The position numbers and the translations under genes were made by a program. Positions 23,604 to 30,690 of a stretch of 64,000 nucleotides of DNA are shown piece after piece. The notes beneath the pieces are model-generated. The model saw nothing but the letters and a program-made list of their open reading frames with translations. It was not told where the DNA came from and did no database searches. Every line of letters starts with the position of its first letter. Position 1 is the first letter of the stretch. Origin of the DNA: Sphingosinicella sp. CPCC 101087 (GTDB lineage Bacteria; Pseudomonadota; Alphaproteobacteria; Sphingomonadales; Sphingomonadaceae); assembly GCF_004151485.1 (NCBI RefSeq), contig NZ_SBFF01000013.1, positions 402-64,401 of the forward strand, read 5' to 3'.

Positions 23604-24380
23604 TCAACAACCGAGTTCACGGTCGAGTGATCGCAGGTTGCGGCGTGAGAGACGCGGAAACAAGCGTAGTCCCGTCCGACTTTCCACGTCCTCGAGTGAA
23701 ACTCGCGACCAGCAATATGGCGCTGATCTGGTCGTGGTCTGATTCATGATGAAGGCCGAGGCACGATAATTTTCCATGACAAGGACCTTCCAGTAGCCCG
23801 ACGGCACACGGTGCGGCTCATCAGCACGCGGCATCGCACGCATGTCCTGCTCAAATAGCGGGCCAGTTAGCACGTAGAGCGTGGCGCCGCTCTCGATAAC
23901 TAGGTCCCGCTCGGCATCTTCAAGCCGCAGCCAAGGTCCTTGGTTGAGGTCGGTAGATTGGGGGGTGATGTTCGACAGGATATTTGTGTCTCTCCAAAAC
24001 ACCGTTCCCGTAAAGGCCGCGAGCGGCGCCTGGTGACCACGATCGATGCCAAGAGCCGAGGGCGCTCCATTATAGTCACTGGGTTCGAGGGTTTCGTCAG
24101 GGTCAAGCCACGGATCTGCCCTCCACGACCGATTGCGAGTGGGACCGATAGTTTCAGGCGTGACCCGGTAGGCCACCCAATCGGCGAAGCGCGTGAGATC
24201 GTTGGAGGAAAGAGTATAAATCTCACGAACGACGAGATCGTTGGTTTCAGGCGAGCCTACCGGGCAGCCATGGAGACAATGAAAAGTATGAATCTCCGCA
24301 TCTTGCGCCGAAGAATGGGAAAAGGACCACGTCGCGAAAACCAAGCCTGCCAATAGGCGACCCCAATGCCTAACATCCAT
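23604..24380 (-). CDS. Secreted DNA/RNA non-specific endonuclease (DRGH type)
   Basis: A betabetaalpha-metal nuclease of the NucA/EndoG family. 258 residues from the ATG at 24380, with a signal peptide (residues about 1-25, ending SHSSA). The active site is complete: Asp113-Arg-Gly-His116 in LGIDRGHQAPLAAF, with His116 as the general base, and the metal ligand Asn146 in TDLNQGPWLRLE. Two Cys pairs are possible (FHCLHGC near the N-terminus). It lies 27 nt after the MauG-like gene on the same strand and may be the last gene of the HXS operon; its own promoter cannot be excluded. Confidence 0.88.
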   Translation of the reverse strand: MDVRHWGRLLAGLVFATWSFSHSSAQDAEIHTFHCLHGCPVGSPETNDLVVREIYTLSSNDLTRFADWVAYRVTPETIGPTRNRSWRADPWLDPDETLEPSDYNGAPSALGIDRGHQAPLAAFTGTVFWRDTNILSNITPQSTDLNQGPWLRLEDAERDLVIESGATLYVLTGPLFEQDMRAMPRADEPHRVPSGYWKVLVMENYRASAFIMNQTTTRSAPYCWSRVSLEDVESRTGLRLFPRLSRRNLRSLDRELGC

Positions 24381-24407
24381 TCTCGCCCCCCACATCGGCA
24401 AAGTCGG

Positions 24408-25670
24408 CTAAAATTCGAGCATGCCAAGGAAGGCAATCACATCGTCTACCTCCTGATCAGAGAGGCTTGCTGGAAGCGGCTCGACTGCGGAGACGCCAAG
24501 CCTTCGGTACTCCTCCAGCCGCTCCGGTCCGGTCATTTGAGATGGGTCCATGTAGCGTAGTGGATCAAAATGGTAGACAATTGCGCGACGCAGGTCAGCC
24601 ACCGAGCCGGAGTGCGAATAAGGTGCCGTTCGCGTGACGTTGTACAGCGGGGGAGTCCTAAACCGGTAGCGGTCCTCCGGCGCGAAGGTCACGTTGTAGC
24701 GGCCCTGGTCGACACCAAACCCGTTCTTGCCGAATCCAGCTTGCGGGAAAGGGACCGCATGGAAATCGAAGTCGGTGAAGTAGGGACCGGCATGGCAGGA
24801 TGAACAGCGGCCTTTGCCGTAGAAGATGATCCCGCCCCGAAGCTCGGCCTGCCTGATCGGGCCATCGTCAAAGACGAAACGGTGCAACTTGGTGGGCTGC
24901 ACGCGGAAGCGGTGGCGAATAAATTCGGCGATTGCCACCGCCACATGTCGAAAATGGATCTCAGAAACCCGGATCCTGAACGCGCCTGCGACGGCCGGCC
25001 CGAGCTCGACGTCGTTGCGGACGCGCCGAGCCAATTCTTCAAAGACACGCTCCGCAGCGTCCACTTCTTCAGTCGCGAGCGTTTGTCGAATCTCATCAGT
25101 GTCGAGGATCATCTCTCGAAGCTCGACGAACGGCAGATGGGCGGCGAGAGTGAGCGGATCGCTCGATGGCGGGCGATCGCCGAACTGGCTGACGATGCCC
25201 GTCTCGGTCAGCTGCACCTTGCCGTCCCAGAATAATGTGTCGAACCCGCGGCTTCCCCTGCCCCACAACGGAAGTACGTTGCGTGGCACGATGAGCCCAC
25301 CGCTTCGAAGACGCTCATGCCCTTCGCCAACACCCCCTACGCCGATGCCGTTTGGAAGGCCGTCCGCCGAGCCGAATCGATCTAGGTGACAGGATTGACA
25401 GGAGATCTCGCCGTTAAGGCTGAGCAGCTCGGAAGCAAACAGCTTCTCGCCCACCGCCTGCCGTGTTGGCTGGCCCGCAATCTCCAGTTCAGATGGTCGC
25501 ACTAAGCCGTAGCGCAATGCAGCACTGCGCAGGACCTGATGGCGGAGCGTATCGCTGGACAATGCGTCGGCGGCAGCCGGCGCGCCTCCTTCGCTCGAAT
25601 CGCAGGCTGATAGCCCGAAAAGCGCGAGAAATAGTAGCGCAGAGCGTAACGGCTCAGTAGCGGATTTCAT
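24408..25670 (-). CDS. His-Xaa-Ser system-associated MauG-like di-haem protein
   Basis: 420 residues; a lipobox (LFGLSACDSS) predicts a lipoprotein anchored in the periplasm. Two c-type haem sites, Cys91-x-x-Cys94-His95 (CQSCH) and Cys289-x-x-Cys292-His293 (CSSCH), in the layout of bacterial cytochrome c peroxidase/MauG. MauG completes a quinone cofactor in a partner protein by long-range oxidation. Such a protein beside a radical SAM operon suggests a second, oxidative maturation step after export; this is inference. It overlaps the TIGR03982-like gene by 17 nt and is thus co-expressed with hxsD-B-C-A. Confidence 0.88.
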   Translation of the reverse strand: MKSATEPLRSALLFLALFGLSACDSSEGGAPAAADALSSDTLRHQVLRSAALRYGLVRPSELEIAGQPTRQAVGEKLFASELLSLNGEISCQSCHLDRFGSADGLPNGIGVGGVGEGHERLRSGGLIVPRNVLPLWGRGSRGFDTLFWDGKVQLTETGIVSQFGDRPPSSDPLTLAAHLPFVELREMILDTDEIRQTLATEEVDAAERVFEELARRVRNDVELGPAVAGAFRIRVSEIHFRHVAVAIAEFIRHRFRVQPTKLHRFVFDDGPIRQAELRGGIIFYGKGRCSSCHAGPYFTDFDFHAVPFPQAGFGKNGFGVDQGRYNVTFAPEDRYRFRTPPLYNVTRTAPYSHSGSVADLRRAIVYHFDPLRYMDPSQMTGPERLEEYRRLGVSAVEPLPASLSDQEVDDVIAFLGMLEF

Positions 25671-26049
25671 GCGTCTCCACCACTTCGAATAAGTCGCTCG
25701 CCTTCGCCTCAATTGCCTCGAGACGCATACGCTGAAGTTCCGGCTCGCGAAGTCCCCATTGCATCAGCCACTTTTGGTAGATGTCGTAATCTTGACAGTC
25801 GAGGAGCGCGATCTCGGCAGAATGGAGAGCCAGGCCCGCCTGAAGCGAAGGACGCGCCGATGCCTCCTGTCGGGCCGTAAAATGCTCCCGCATCGCGAAA
25901 TCGCACTGGTAAACGAGTGCGCCATAGCGGTCTTGGTGCCATGCCATGATAGCCTCGCGCCATAGCGGCATGGCCGGCCAGGCGACGGCTAGTCCGAGCG
26001 CAAATGCGCCGAGGTGAGAGGCTTTATTGCGCCAAGATCCGAAGCGCAT
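25654..26049 (-). CDS. TIGR03982-like His-Xaa-Ser system protein
   Basis: 131 residues. The N-terminal hydrophobic segment (GAFALGLAVAWPAMPLW) looks like a membrane anchor or uncleaved signal. The rest is helical with two conserved-looking Cys (YQCDFAMREHF and LLDCQDYDIYQKWLMQWG). Size, position between hxsA and the MauG-like gene, and the WGLREPELQRMRL region match what I recall of the TIGR03982 family, which is found only with HXS loci. Role unknown. It overlaps hxsA by 26 nt and the MauG-like gene by 17 nt. Confidence 0.72.
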   Translation of the reverse strand: MRFGSWRNKASHLGAFALGLAVAWPAMPLWREAIMAWHQDRYGALVYQCDFAMREHFTARQEASARPSLQAGLALHSAEIALLDCQDYDIYQKWLMQWGLREPELQRMRLEAIEAKASDLFEVVETHEIRY

Positions 26050-26587
26050 TGAGGACCTCTGGAGTGATGGTGCCGGTAACTTTGAGGCTATAATCGGTCT
26101 GATAGCGCACTATCGCGGCGCGGGTTTGTGGCCCCGATATTCCGTCGATTGTACCCGTATAGTAGCCGAGCGCTTGGAGGGCGAGTTGCACCTGCCGAAC
26201 GATGCTCTGGACCGAAGTGGCCTCGCGCGAGGGCGCTATGGCTGGCGAGGACGGAAGTACACTGGAAGGGGGTGTGCTGCGCTGGTTGCGCGACGGCGCG
26301 GGTGTCGAAGGCCGCGGCGCGCGCGGCGTCGTCCTGGGCGCCGAGGGCGTGCGCACCCGCCCGGAAGCGCCCGAGCGGTGGCTACCATGGGAGGCATGAC
26401 TCGAATGTGAGCGGTGCTGGGCAAGCGAGATAGCGTGATCCAGCCGGAACCGATGAAAGAGACCGTCTCGGTTCAACCCGTCTCCGCCCGAACCACTCGT
26501 AGCCTGCACGAACGCGGCTTCGGCGGGGATCGATTGGGTAAAGCCCGCTACCGCGAGGCTCGGTATGATGAAGGTCCTTTTGCTCAT
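26024..26587 (-). CDS. hxsA: His-Xaa-Ser repeat protein HxsA
   Basis: The presumed substrate of the HXS system. 187 residues. Signal peptide at about residues 1-24 with a good cleavage motif (AEA before AFV). Residues 58-72 are five uninterrupted HxS triplets: HRS HSS HAS HGS HRS. A Pro/Ser/Thr/Arg-rich linker follows (about 73-122), then a peptidoglycan-binding domain (VRQVQLALQALGYYTGTID, then TRAAIVRYQ). The ATG at 26587 overlaps the hxsC stop (ATGA). The domain order suggests that the modified repeat is exported and held at the cell wall. The chemical change on the repeats is unknown. Confidence 0.9.
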   Translation of the reverse strand: MSKRTFIIPSLAVAGFTQSIPAEAAFVQATSGSGGDGLNRDGLFHRFRLDHAISLAQHRSHSSHASHGSHRSGASGRVRTPSAPRTTPRAPRPSTPAPSRNQRSTPPSSVLPSSPAIAPSREATSVQSIVRQVQLALQALGYYTGTIDGISGPQTRAAIVRYQTDYSLKVTGTITPEVLNALRILAQ

Positions 26588-27660
26588 ATCGGCACTACCT
26601 TCTCCAACAACTCTTGCGGATGCCATTCGAAGAAGCCTGAGCAGTCGGATCGCTCAGCGCATGAGCAGCAGTCGGGTGCAAACTTCTGCTTCCAGTCCGA
26701 GATCGAGGCGATGGCGAACTTCCGGTAAGGTTGGGGTACACTGCATCGTGGAAAGTTGAACAGGGCCGGTCGGACACCGAACAGGAGCGCCCGATCGATA
26801 GCTTGCGCAAGCGGGCCGAACTCAGCTGACGGGTCGACATAAAGCGCGCTCCATCGTCCTCGTGCAAAGCCGATGTTCTCGAGCTGCATGATCGACCATT
26901 GTTCGACGAAGCGCAGGTAAGTGGTGACGTGACATGCAAGCGCATCAAGGGCAGTCCAGTTAGGTTGCAGCACAACCGTGCGCAGTTCCACCCGTGCCCC
27001 GGCCATGATGAGGTGCCGCAGGCTGCGCTCGAGCCGGAGGAAGGCGCCCGATTTGGCAACGATCTGATCGTGAAGCGAAGGCTCGGCGGCATAAAGGGGT
27101 ATGCCCCAGACGACGTTGCGAAATCGCCGGTCAGCGAGGCGGTCGATCTCGGCTTCCTCAAAATGCTGGCCGTTGGTGAGAACATGGAAGGAAAGATCGG
27201 GCCGACGTTCGATCACGTACTCGAGAAAAGCCAAGAGCCGCTCCTTGTAGAGAGTCGGCTCGCCGCCTGAGAGCCCAATCGTTTCCCCATGGGCCGCCAG
27301 CAGACAGGCTCGTTCGAAATATGCGAAGCGGTCTTGATGTGTCTTTTTCGGCGGCTGTGAGCACATGATGCACAGTTGATCGCAGCGCTCGGTGACCATG
27401 AGCGTGTTATGACGGGAGCCTGCACGTAGCAGGCGGTGGGCGCTCTCGGCACCTGGATCTACCAGAACGACGTCGCCATCGAGAGCCGCACTCGGTTGTC
27501 CGACAATTTCGATGAGGCCCTGATCGCCGGCAAAAAGGAGGGTGTCGTTTGCTTCGGCCTGCAGTCGGCTTACGTCGACGCCACCCGCTTGCGAACAGGA
27601 AAGGCGCGTCACAAATGGTGCCGGGGCATCAGAGCGAGCCTGAAGTGTAAGCGGGATCAT
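26584..27660 (-). CDS. hxsC: Radical SAM maturase HxsC
   Basis: 358 residues. The 4Fe-4S/SAM motif is Cys-x3-Cys-x2-Cys in VTERCDQLCIMCSQPPK (about residues 91-107), followed by the SAM-binding GLSGGEPTLYKERL. The CxxxCxMCSQPP form is characteristic of HxsC. Near the C-terminus CSSC and CSGFF-type cysteines (DCCSCAERSDCSGFFEWH) may hold an auxiliary cluster. Works with HxsB on HxsA, by family context. Start and stop both overlap neighbours as ATGA. Confidence 0.92.
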   Translation of the reverse strand: MIPLTLQARSDAPAPFVTRLSCSQAGGVDVSRLQAEANDTLLFAGDQGLIEIVGQPSAALDGDVVLVDPGAESAHRLLRAGSRHNTLMVTERCDQLCIMCSQPPKKTHQDRFAYFERACLLAAHGETIGLSGGEPTLYKERLLAFLEYVIERRPDLSFHVLTNGQHFEEAEIDRLADRRFRNVVWGIPLYAAEPSLHDQIVAKSGAFLRLERSLRHLIMAGARVELRTVVLQPNWTALDALACHVTTYLRFVEQWSIMQLENIGFARGRWSALYVDPSAEFGPLAQAIDRALLFGVRPALFNFPRCSVPQPYRKFAIASISDWKQKFAPDCCSCAERSDCSGFFEWHPQELLEKVVPI

Positions 27661-29066
27661 CGCGACACTGCCAAGTCTGGAAGGTCGCCGCCGAGGTCCA
27701 ACCAGCGAGCGAGCGAGTAGCGCGTGGCAGGATCATCAGAATAGATTAGCCGGAACGCGAAATCGAACACATGGAGGTGCCGCCGGCAGAATTCAGTCTC
27801 CCGGCGTGGCACGTCAATTCGGCCGTAGCGAGCCAGATCGTCAACAAGGTCGCGCCCGCAAAAGGGTTGATAGGTGCACCGCTGACAGTCCGGATCGAAT
27901 TGGTTGGTTGACGCGCAGTCCAGGACAGCTCGCTGCTCAGTATCCCAGCCGGATGCGACATGGCCAATGGCCAGATCGACGACACCCGAACGGGCAAGCA
28001 TTCGGGCCTCGTCCGTAGGATAGACGACCCCGTCATGGTCGATCACGATATAGTCACGCCCGACCGGATTAGGATTGCGCAGGTCGACATGACGGTCGTG
28101 TCCTGGTTGGAAAATTCGGCGGAGGCACAAGGAGAGGTAGGTCTCCTCAAGGACGATCGAAGGATCGCTCCAGTTGCGCGCGATGATGGCCTGAACGAAG
28201 CTTTCGTAATATTCGCGCCAACGATCATCTTGCGCTCGGCTGTCGGGGTGGCGCTTTCGCGCAAATCCCTGGTAGTTGATCGGCCGCAAGTAGATGCTGG
28301 GAAGCCGGCGGGAAGCAAAGGCCTCTACCAGCGTTTCGACTTGTGGCGGATTGAGAGGATCGAGCGTGGGGAGCGCCGAAACCTTGTCTGGTCCGTATCT
28401 GTCCAGAACGAACTCCAAGTTGGCAAAGAAAGTCCGCGTCTTTTCTGCTGTGGCGGTGCGGTTCTGTTGGTGGGTGAATTCACTCCCGTCCAGGGACGTG
28501 CTGATGAGGACGTCTGGTCGGTCAAAGATCCTCATCACATCTTCGTCGAGGCACGAGAGGTTGGTGCAGATGACGAAGGACTTATCTGCAAAGCGCTCGC
28601 ACCGTTCGATCACGGAGGCGATGAGGTCGGGCCGAAGCGTGGGCTCTCCGCCTTGAAACTCCAACTTCACCGCCCCCGCATCGAGCCGATCGATTAAAGT
28701 GAGGACCGCGGCAAGCGTCTCGTCGCTCCAATCATATCCTCGACTCTCAAGGCTGGCACGCGACACCTGGCAGTAGGAGCAAGCGAGATTGCAGCGCAGG
28801 GTCGGGACCAGAATCAGGTAATCGAGGGTAGTGGGCGAGGTGATGCGGCGAGCACAGCCATGAAGGTGTGAAGCAAATCCGAGCGAATCGATATCATCGA
28901 ACGCCTGCCCTCGCTCGCTGAGGAATGAGATGTCCTCCGCCGTCAGTTCATCGAAAGCATAGCGGCGAAGGAAGGCTCTGTCGCCCTGGAAGAATTGTCC
29001 GGCATCGTTCGCAAAGAGGAGACTCTCCTTGCCCGACGGACGGACCCGTAGCGGCAACACTATCAT
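27657..29066 (-). CDS. hxsB: Radical SAM maturase HxsB with SPASM-like C-terminus
   Basis: 469 residues. Radical SAM motif Cys-x3-Cys-x2-Cys in PTLRCNLACSYCQVSRA (about residues 88-104), then LEFQGGEPTLRPDL. The C-terminal Cys group DPDCQRCTYQPFCGRD plus a later TEFCRRH resembles SPASM auxiliary-cluster ligands found in peptide-modifying maturases. The N-terminal region (about 1-80) contains FAYDELTAED-like sequence conserved in paired HXS enzymes. Its ATG overlaps the hxsD stop and its TGA overlaps the hxsC start. Confidence 0.92.
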   Translation of the reverse strand: MIVLPLRVRPSGKESLLFANDAGQFFQGDRAFLRRYAFDELTAEDISFLSERGQAFDDIDSLGFASHLHGCARRITSPTTLDYLILVPTLRCNLACSYCQVSRASLESRGYDWSDETLAAVLTLIDRLDAGAVKLEFQGGEPTLRPDLIASVIERCERFADKSFVICTNLSCLDEDVMRIFDRPDVLISTSLDGSEFTHQQNRTATAEKTRTFFANLEFVLDRYGPDKVSALPTLDPLNPPQVETLVEAFASRRLPSIYLRPINYQGFARKRHPDSRAQDDRWREYYESFVQAIIARNWSDPSIVLEETYLSLCLRRIFQPGHDRHVDLRNPNPVGRDYIVIDHDGVVYPTDEARMLARSGVVDLAIGHVASGWDTEQRAVLDCASTNQFDPDCQRCTYQPFCGRDLVDDLARYGRIDVPRRETEFCRRHLHVFDFAFRLIYSDDPATRYSLARWLDLGGDLPDLAVSR

Positions 29067-29362
29067 CGACCGAACAACTGTTCGTGCACGAGCGTCCGGA
29101 AGCCGCGAGATCGCTCGAAAATATGCTCACCTAAGAGAAGAGCATCCCAAGCTAATAAGAGACGACAAGAATCGTAGCCAGCAGAATCGAGGAGGACCGA
29201 ATCCTCATCAATTTGCCAATCAATTCCCGGAAACGTGTCAGCAAGACGCACGAGCGCATCTTCGATGCGCGCACACCCTGGCGAAACAAGCGCAAGCCTA
29301 AGCTCGGACGCCTGCTCCCTTGGCCTCTTCCCCCTGCTGAGCAAAGCACTCCCCCATGCCAC
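29063..29362 (-). CDS. hxsD: Probable HxsD
   Basis: The small first gene expected in an HXS operon. The C-terminal part (AWDALLLGEHIFERSRGFRTLVHEQLFGR, taken as pieces) resembles the HxsD ending, a helix followed by IRxLIxxQAF. The stop overlaps the hxsB ATG (ATGA). The start is unclear: a GTG at 29362 gives 99 residues, a TTG at 29344 gives 93, and the frame is open to a GTG at 29488. No start has a good ribosome site. HxsD is assigned mainly from position, size and the C-terminus; the sequence is divergent. Confidence 0.6.
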   Translation of the reverse strand: MAWGSALLSRGKRPREQASELRLALVSPGCARIEDALVRLADTFPGIDWQIDEDSVLLDSAGYDSCRLLLAWDALLLGEHIFERSRGFRTLVHEQLFGR

Positions 29363-29820: not shown

Positions 29821-30690
29821 ATGCCGCAATGGCCGTTCATTCCAGGCCGACTTTACAGCCGCCGGAATGACATTCACGCAAGGTATGGTGGGCAGGAGCA
29901 GGGAGGGATTTCGACACCCCAGAGTGTGGGAGCGGTTTTCGCGTTTACGGGCGAAAGTGGCTTGAAGCACGGCTATGCTGACGGCTGGCAACCGGATGGC
30001 TCGTTCAGCTACTGCGGGGAGGGACGCACCGGCGACATGGTATTGAAAAGAGGCAACCGAGCAATCGCCTCTCATGCGTCTCTCAGCCGCGATATCCTTC
30101 TTTTCGAGACCACAGGAAAAGGCAGGCCAGTCCGCTTCACTGGCCAGTTCATGTGCGCCGGTTGGACGGACCAACAGCTCCCGGACACCAATGGGTTCCT
30201 GCGGAAGGCAATAGTCTTTCGTTTGGTGCCTTTGAACCTCGCGGCAGACCCGATTGTCGAAGCACTGCCGGAAGTTCCTAGGACCACTGAGGAATTCAAC
30301 CAGTTGCGCGCGCGAGCCTACGCTGCGGCAAAGGCGCCAGAGGGTGTCCAGGCCAAAGATGCTGTGGTTGCATCATACGTGCGCAGCAAGACGGTCCGCG
30401 ACTACGCTCTGGCGCGAGCCAATGGTCGCTGCGAGTCTTGCAATGAAGGTGCGCCATTCGAAACACCGGCAGGGCTTCCATTCCTGGAGGTCCACCACAT
30501 TAAGCGACTCACAGATGGCGGGCCAGATTCACCTGGGTCCGTGGCCGCGATTTGCCCTAACTGTCATCGTGAAGCACACTACGGCGCTTCGGCCGTCGCC
30601 ATTAACGACCGGCTTCTGGCCCTAGTCCAAGCCGTGGAACGGGTGACGATCGCCGACTTGCCCCTCATCGCTAAGAGATCGATTCACTAA
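29821..30690 (+). CDS. HNH endonuclease with SRA-like N-terminal domain (ScoMcrA-like type IV)
   Basis: 289 residues; GGAGG lies six bases before the ATG. The N-terminal half (about residues 5-140: PGRLYSRRNDIHARYGGQ, GGISTPQSVGAVFAFTG, GEGRTGDMVLKRGNRAI) matches the SRA-like domain of ScoMcrA-type modification-dependent nucleases. The C-terminal half (about 195-260) is an HNH nuclease: Cys204/Cys207 and Cys245/Cys248 as zinc ligands, and catalytic EVHHIKRLTDGG with His225/His226. The architecture predicts cleavage of modified (for example methylated or phosphorothioated) invading DNA. It stands alone without a partner methylase, as expected for type IV restriction. Confidence 0.82.
   Translation: MPQWPFIPGRLYSRRNDIHARYGGQEQGGISTPQSVGAVFAFTGESGLKHGYADGWQPDGSFSYCGEGRTGDMVLKRGNRAIASHASLSRDILLFETTGKGRPVRFTGQFMCAGWTDQQLPDTNGFLRKAIVFRLVPLNLAADPIVEALPEVPRTTEEFNQLRARAYAAAKAPEGVQAKDAVVASYVRSKTVRDYALARANGRCESCNEGAPFETPAGLPFLEVHHIKRLTDGGPDSPGSVAAICPNCHREAHYGASAVAINDRLLALVQAVERVTIADLPLIAKRSIH

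Follow-up and report, generated by a model that had tools for sequence, protein, structure and literature searches.

The 64,000-nucleotide (nt) stretch of Sphingosinicella sp. CPCC 101087 analysed here (hereafter the window; contig NZ_SBFF01000013.1, positions 402 to 64,401) carries a complete His-Xaa-Ser (HXS) locus of the di-haem subtype, as assigned from profile matches and gene adjacency. The genes hxsD, hxsB, hxsC and hxsA, a TIGR03982 gene and a TIGR03981 (MauG-like) gene form a gapless run from 29362 to 24408 on the minus strand. An earlier reading of the letters alone (the sequence-only reading) had placed six HXS genes at 24408-29362, and all six were found there, on that strand. Neighbours overlap by 4 nt (ATGA) at three junctions (hxsD/hxsB, hxsB/hxsC and hxsC/hxsA), by 26 nt between hxsA and the TIGR03982 gene and by 17 nt between the TIGR03982 and MauG-like genes; the previously described overlaps of 17-26 nt were thus recovered, while the ATGA overlaps number three, not four, if four were meant.

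Five products exceeded the cut-offs of their NCBIfam models: the radical S-adenosylmethionine (SAM) maturase HxsB (27657..29066, minus strand; TIGR03978, 373.3 bits against a cut-off of 370), the second such maturase HxsC (26584..27660, minus strand; TIGR03977, 308.5 against 267.9), the predicted exported substrate HxsA (26024..26587, minus strand; TIGR03979, 128.2 against 121.65), the TIGR03982 protein (25654..26049, minus strand; 79.8 against 40) and the TIGR03981 di-haem protein (24408..25670, minus strand; 382.3 against 340, with a CCP_MauG domain at E 1.4e-17). The profile searches that had been proposed as a check on the sequence-only reading therefore came out above cut-off for HxsB, HxsC, HxsA and TIGR03982, while HxsD gave no TIGR03976 match. 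By these scores the locus is a genuine HXS system of secure identity and of an already known kind. It shares with that system (TIGR03976-TIGR03979, TIGR03981, TIGR03982) the five over-cut-off proteins, the five triplets and a peptidoglycan-binding substrate, and with other di-haem HXS loci the order hxsD-B-C-A followed by TIGR03982 and TIGR03981; NCBIfam already lists the last two as families under His-Xaa-Ser-associated names. It differs from known HXS loci in that its HxsD falls outside TIGR03976, its single array lacks HYS and a secreted nuclease abuts the operon. The HXS families were reportedly defined in a 2011 paper. In the literature searched, which left most subscription papers outside its scope, we found no study of HXS chemistry, and a published characterisation may exist; HxsB and HxsC are treated as putative in the part of PMC9062424 consulted.

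HxsA is 187 amino acids (aa) long from the ATG at 26587, which overlaps hxsC; a further in-frame ATG lies upstream at 26626. Its array, HRS-HSS-HAS-HGS-HRS (26372..26416, minus strand), has triplets starting at residues 58, 61, 64, 67 and 70, and the earlier description of the protein (five triplets at residues 58-72, a signal peptide and a peptidoglycan-binding domain) was borne out by a PG_binding_1 match (E 5.9e-17) and a Sec-type signal, placed by eye, that ends before AFVQA. The predicted mature protein has no Trp and no Cys, and Tyr only inside the peptidoglycan-binding domain. Four or more tandem HxS triplets occurred in 88 of the 11,353 open reading frames (ORFs) of the loci examined, and all 88 were HxsA; thus the array is not a chance repeat. 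Uninterrupted runs of 4-7 triplets were present in 88 of 92 HxsA-like rows; the remaining four are near-copies of a single wall-binding paralogue that has no array.

The start of hxsD (29063..29362, minus strand) is uncertain: GTG at 29362 was used, and the frame is open to 29488. No NCBIfam or Pfam model matched the window's HxsD at the thresholds used. A profile of 50 genes lying directly upstream of hxsB at other loci found it at 28.7 bits (E 6e-8), while the best of 1000 shuffles reached 6.7 bits; by this comparison it is homologous to its positional counterparts elsewhere. At E<=0.1, TIGR03976 matched 16 and NF038315 nine of 51 HxsD-position proteins (window included), and 35 of the 51, the window's among them, fall outside TIGR03976; therefore one HxsD branch is without a model. 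On seven plasmids the gene in this position is annotated "hypothetical protein". An AlphaFold model gave a beta-alpha-beta-beta-alpha fold (predicted local distance difference test, pLDDT, 84.8), and a Protein Data Bank (PDB) search with it returned nothing at E <= 0.001 (best 0.16, Pcc1 complex). With this fold and best match, a role as recognition element for a ribosomally synthesised and post-translationally modified peptide found no support.

Both maturases retain their cluster residues. Among 77 aligned HxsB proteins, C92/C96/C99 are kept in 76 and C394, C397, C403 and C427 in 75-77, and in HxsC, C93/C97/C100 together with C306, C331, C334 and C340 are kept in 81 of 81; the four further Cys in each enzyme would be enough for one auxiliary cluster. 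A radical SAM maturase with further conserved Cys is also common to the triceptide or three-residue cyclophane systems (HaaB, YhhB, MscB), in which an aromatic residue is joined to a partner two residues on: the part of PMC11002830 consulted gives an i to i+2 bond of the type C2(His)-Cbeta(Ala) for HaaB, C2(His)-Cbeta(Arg) for YhhB and C4(Phe)-Cbeta(Ser) for MscB. The triceptide motif aromatic-X-X is present in the HXS substrate as the HxS array, and by this analogy H-x-S unites a known donor (His) with a known acceptor (the Ser beta-carbon). Unlike triceptide systems, HXS has two radical SAM enzymes and a wall-binding protein as substrate, and HxsB and HxsC are separate families, both scoring far under the cut-offs of the YhhB and FxsB models. 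A sactipeptide or ranthipeptide (thioether) system, which needs Cys in the modified region, does not fit the Cys-free predicted mature HxsA. The HXS system probably rewrites the HxS repeat of an exported wall-binding protein chemically; the particular chemistry set out below is a reasoned guess by analogy.

The last two genes make up a di-haem module. The TIGR03982 protein is predicted to be membrane-anchored and helical: its structure model (pLDDT 88.3) has a helix over residues 3-65 followed by helices 69-97 and 102-126, and a PDB search with the model gave no fold match at E <= 0.001 (best 0.72). C49, D50, E79, C85, Y88, D89, K93, H127 and E128 are invariant in 31 of 31 TIGR03982 proteins, with no invariant Trp. 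The TIGR03981 gene starts at ATG 25670 (frame open to 25712), and its product is a probable lipoprotein (LSAC lipobox, by eye). Two CxxCH sites (C105-H109 and C303-H307) and H381 (numbered in the 434-aa frame) are invariant in all 29 aligned TIGR03981 proteins. In a phmmer alignment with the MbnH-like 6e1c, H381 stands opposite a Tyr, and the one with 1eb7 stops two residues short of residue 275, where H381 would fall; this Tyr and residue 275 we take to be axial ligands. As aligned, the TIGR03981 family has an invariant His replacing the axial Tyr of the six-coordinate haem. Exchange of the axial Tyr for His abolishes bis-Fe(IV) in BthA and MauG, according to the part of PMC6405878 consulted; therefore the natural His points to a peroxidase-like enzyme acting on a donor or small oxidisable group, and not to long-range oxidation of the MauG kind. 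With MauG, MbnH and BthA the protein shares two CxxCH sites, a CCP_MauG domain and a place beside a modification pathway, while the His and the predicted lipoprotein nature set it apart.

Could the di-haem protein turn Trp or Tyr of HxsA into a cofactor, in the way that MauG acts on methylamine dehydrogenase? The family name and the CCP_MauG domain speak for such a role, as does the presence of Trp after HxsA residue 30 (longest frame) in 13 of 31 di-haem loci compared with four of 36 without the gene. Yet the window's HxsA has no Trp, which rules out Trp as the target there, its Tyr residues are confined to the peptidoglycan-binding domain, and the family carries the invariant His in place of the axial Tyr; we consider this role highly improbable. 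An identity as MauG itself (tryptophan tryptophylquinone biosynthesis) is not supported, given the same His and a score of 65.6 against the TIGR03791 cut-off of 443.85; the score for TIGR04039 was 94.8 against 362.85.

HxsC was found in seven of 385 genomes of the class, in two of 41 relatives (the other one having two copies) and in 15 of 396 sampled genomes of the order (one below cut-off at a contig end), the window's genome being counted each time. From a genome-contig search the best 80 of 387 relatives were kept. After removal of near-copies the di-haem gene was present in 31 of 81 loci, and with duplicates included TIGR03982 and the di-haem gene co-occurred in the same 32 of 89. Of the 75 loci with a long HxsA, 41 showed no module within the stretch examined, which makes it an optional accessory. 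Among sphingomonads four of 30 rows have it (the window, L182, L184 and L185), which refutes the idea that it is unique to the window in that group. On the HxsC tree the module state changes six times over 81 rows, at least three changes being forced by well-supported branches; the window is unplaced among sphingomonads there and the MauG tree is weak in the same region, and retention and transfer of the module cannot be told apart.

At L047, L050, L054, L063-L067 and L072 the TIGR03981 gene is followed or faced by another di-haem peroxidase-like gene of greater size (about 475-560 aa). An interruption of 1.3-1.6 kb splits the TIGR03981 frame itself at L047 and L054, and these were counted as having the di-haem gene. 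On three rhizobial plasmids a 386-414 aa protein without Pfam match lies directly after hxsA (L100:6480-7640, L107:11560-12720, L106:11732-12976), in the place of the window's TIGR03982 and di-haem genes.

The content of the array differs with the module. Among the 75 loci with a long HxsA, in which two row pairs have identical HxsC, the HYS triplet was absent from all 34 that have the module and present in 27 of the 41 others; HGS occurred in 22 of 34 versus none of 41, and a second array in one of 34 versus 22 of 41 (sphingomonads alone, 30 rows: none of four versus 22 of 26). It is suggestive, at the level of residues, that arrays meeting the oxidase carry no oxidisable Tyr. This tracking of the module by array residues counts against a target in TIGR03982 instead of HxsA, as does the lack of an invariant Trp in that protein; the presence of both genes in the same loci, their 17-nt overlap in the window and the invariant Cys, Tyr, Lys and His of TIGR03982 would fit such a target, which we hold to be unlikely.

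Immediately beyond the operon, 6 nt downstream of the di-haem gene, lies a gene for a predicted secreted DNA/RNA non-specific endonuclease (23604..24401, minus strand; PF01223 E 4.7e-40, signal by eye). It belongs to a sphingomonad subfamily: related nucleases are 60% identical at L032, where the gene adjoins hxsA, and 56% at L025, and one also lies beside HXS at L182. The 40 HXS genomes examined have 16 PF01223 genes, five of them within about 8 kb of HXS, a count biased upward by the inclusion of all five already-known nuclease-bearing loci among the 40 genomes chosen of 80. In the unselected sample of 396 genomes of the order, the close nuclease subfamily occurred in eight, hxsC in 15 and both in two (the window's genome and G584), where nuclease and hxsC are a few kb apart. 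Six of the seven other genomes with a close relative of the nuclease have no hxsC; the nuclease was therefore rejected as an HXS component and is linked, not obligatory. On the other side, divergent from hxsD and 458 nt from the hxsD start used, an HNH protein (29821..30690, plus strand; HNH E 4.3e-8) is a candidate type IV restriction enzyme (PADLOC mREase_IV E 6.1e-26, over its C-terminal part), with no assignment for its N-terminal part; it is a neighbour and not part of HXS. Elsewhere, a pair of VWA-domain and PP2C phosphatase genes lies downstream of HXS at two loci very different from each other, L104:11682-13129 (Sinorhizobium) and L110:12742-14210 (Cupriavidus).

The locus lies on a stretch of lower guanine-plus-cytosine (GC) content that looks like a small island: GC is 0.57-0.63 between 22 and 31 kb, against 0.65-0.73 at 12-20 kb and, for the most part, past 33.5 kb. 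A search in the genus with flanking genes found no empty site, the chosen left-flank ORF being perhaps not a real gene.

The sequence-only reading had also suggested comparing the neighbours of other HXS loci. Pfam searches on ten neighbour genes revealed no common theme. For PADLOC we scanned flanks of 20 of the 80 HXS loci, chosen by us from the full-length stretches ahead of any such scan. These 230 ORFs matched 21+65 PADLOC families at E<=1e-15 (two scans), against 2+1 (mad3, mad8) for 215 ORFs of contig 1 windows of the same genomes at equal total length and 18+6 (Septu, AbiEi, RecD-like, mad2 and PDC candidates) for 214 ORFs of integrase-centred windows, one stretch being shorter; since one gene matches many models, such family counts are redundant, inflated and not per locus. 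The listed flank matches (46 families) include cyclic-oligonucleotide-based antiphage signalling system (CBASS) parts (cyclase, E1-E2, JAB and TRIP13, with TIR, NucC and phospholipase effectors) as well as AbiEi/AbiEii, DrmD, DRT, PD-Lambda-1, pycTIR and mad3, whereas CBASS is absent from the 24 families matched in the integrase windows. With seeds from annotated plasmids, CBASS-like parts were found at L027, L032, L040, L063/L064, L101, L102 and L106 (the L032 and L106 calls resting on ThiF/JAB matches alone, which are common to other systems too), and AbiEii at L033 and L105. The CBASS phospholipase PDLC00757 has 12 genes in 40 HXS genomes, four of them 5.6-11.6 kb from hxsC, where a uniform null expects 0.06 within 12 kb (P 5e-7); islands break the assumption of uniformity, and the cut at 12 kb was chosen after looking.

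HxsC matches at 1e-20 extended to 430 plasmid records, 331 of them Klebsiella, and to 10 viral contigs, with two phage records at 1e-15. Of 12 plasmid HXS regions opened, one was unannotated and a tumour-inducing (Ti) plasmid without control was excluded; defence words occurred in six of the remaining 10 regions versus one of 10 opposite windows (one-sided Fisher about 0.03 by hand; stretches of 12-29 kb versus controls of 21 kb, with a word list chosen after looking). Thus defence genes are enriched around HXS relatives over both controls, a correlational result from small and partly post hoc samples.

These neighbourhoods bear on two accounts of what HXS is for. In one, HXS is an envelope defence against phages or plasmids, in which a wall-bound modified array blocks or senses entry and the di-haem module and the nuclease are interchangeable effectors. 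The excess of PADLOC families over both controls, the four CBASS phospholipase genes near hxsC and the plasmid defence words argue for it. However, defence genes cluster in islands, and lanthipeptide clusters co-locate with them likewise, according to the part of PMC12715929 consulted. Moreover the family counts are redundant, the word list and distance limit were post hoc, four of the 10 plasmid regions had no defence word, and a Leptospira phage record (L171) itself carries an annotated hxsA-D-B-C set. In the window, only the type IV restriction candidate has a defence match: none of the 47 other ORFs matched PADLOC at 1e-10, and HxsB and HxsC drew only a generic radical SAM (pVip) match and no known defence model. 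No defence role for HXS was found in the literature searched, within the scope given above. We regard this account as possible but rather doubtful.

In the other account, HXS is island cargo that serves a different end (competition, envelope stress, or the handling of metals or redox state), and its defence neighbours reflect shared islands only. Integrase-centred windows hold defence genes too; a Klebsiella grimontii plasmid (L099) has its HXS locus near a heat-resistance island and insertion sequence (IS) elements and no defence words; and the phage-borne set counts on this side as well. His-rich arrays can bind metals, which would also suit such a role. Against it, CBASS parts recur beside HXS of several lineages and are missing from the integrase-window families. 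We judge it to fall just short of an even chance.

The explanation of the whole that we favour, and rate as evenly balanced between right and wrong, is a di-haem-subtype HXS locus on an island, whose HxS triplets would be cross-linked, exported and bound to the wall before the di-haem and TIGR03982 proteins act. It starts from what is observed: gene identities and order, cofactor residues, the array, the optional last two genes and the defence-gene enrichment around relatives. In the cytoplasm, HxsB and HxsC, aided by HxsD, would modify every HxS triplet of HxsA, most likely by joining the His imidazole to the Ser beta-carbon (i/i+2), which would give five small rings in a row. Modified HxsA would then be exported and bind peptidoglycan. 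Its array may afterwards be acted on, or have its redox state recycled, by the TIGR03982 protein, anchored in the membrane, and a bis-His di-haem lipoprotein that uses peroxide. We infer every chemical step here, as well as haem ligation, cell location and cellular use. The sequence-only reading had the triplets changed in the cytoplasm, exported, wall-anchored and then oxidised by the MauG-like protein; the first three steps fit the anatomy, because the locus encodes two radical SAM enzymes with conserved cluster Cys, a signal sequence and a peptidoglycan-binding domain, while oxidation of the MauG type needs qualifying in view of the invariant His at the axial-Tyr position.

Several lines of evidence weigh against the favoured explanation: i) among the 25 of 72 matches listed, the best foreign NCBIfam match of HxsB is PapB (ranthipeptide, thioether) and not a cyclophane enzyme, and HxsB scores far below the cyclophane models (YhhB, 45.4 versus 445; FxsB, 35.6 versus 370; AmcB, 36.9 versus 425); ii) the axial His of TIGR03981 was placed by sequence alignment alone; iii) the raw Fisher values for array and module are small, but only three well-supported independent pairs exist (67-row set); across these, HGS agrees in direction in 2.3 pairs on average and is never reversed, HYS goes the other way in 1.4 pairs on average, and neither sign test is significant; iv) the island edges are not fixed, since GC takes intermediate values (0.60-0.64) at 20-22 kb and falls to 0.52 near 33 kb.

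At its boldest, the material could mean that HXS defends the cell at its envelope and has so far gone unrecognised as a defence system: a His-Ser array, cross-linked by radical chemistry, would be displayed on the wall, a naturally bis-His di-haem oxidase would tune it in one of the subtypes, and islands and plasmids would have spread the system in company with genes for CBASS, restriction and abortive infection; this we offer as speculation, with considerable doubt. The defence setting, while correlational, is the most consequential new lead and a testable clue to what HXS is used for. Together with a di-haem enzyme that carries a defined ligand change, it makes "function unknown" specifically testable for this family.

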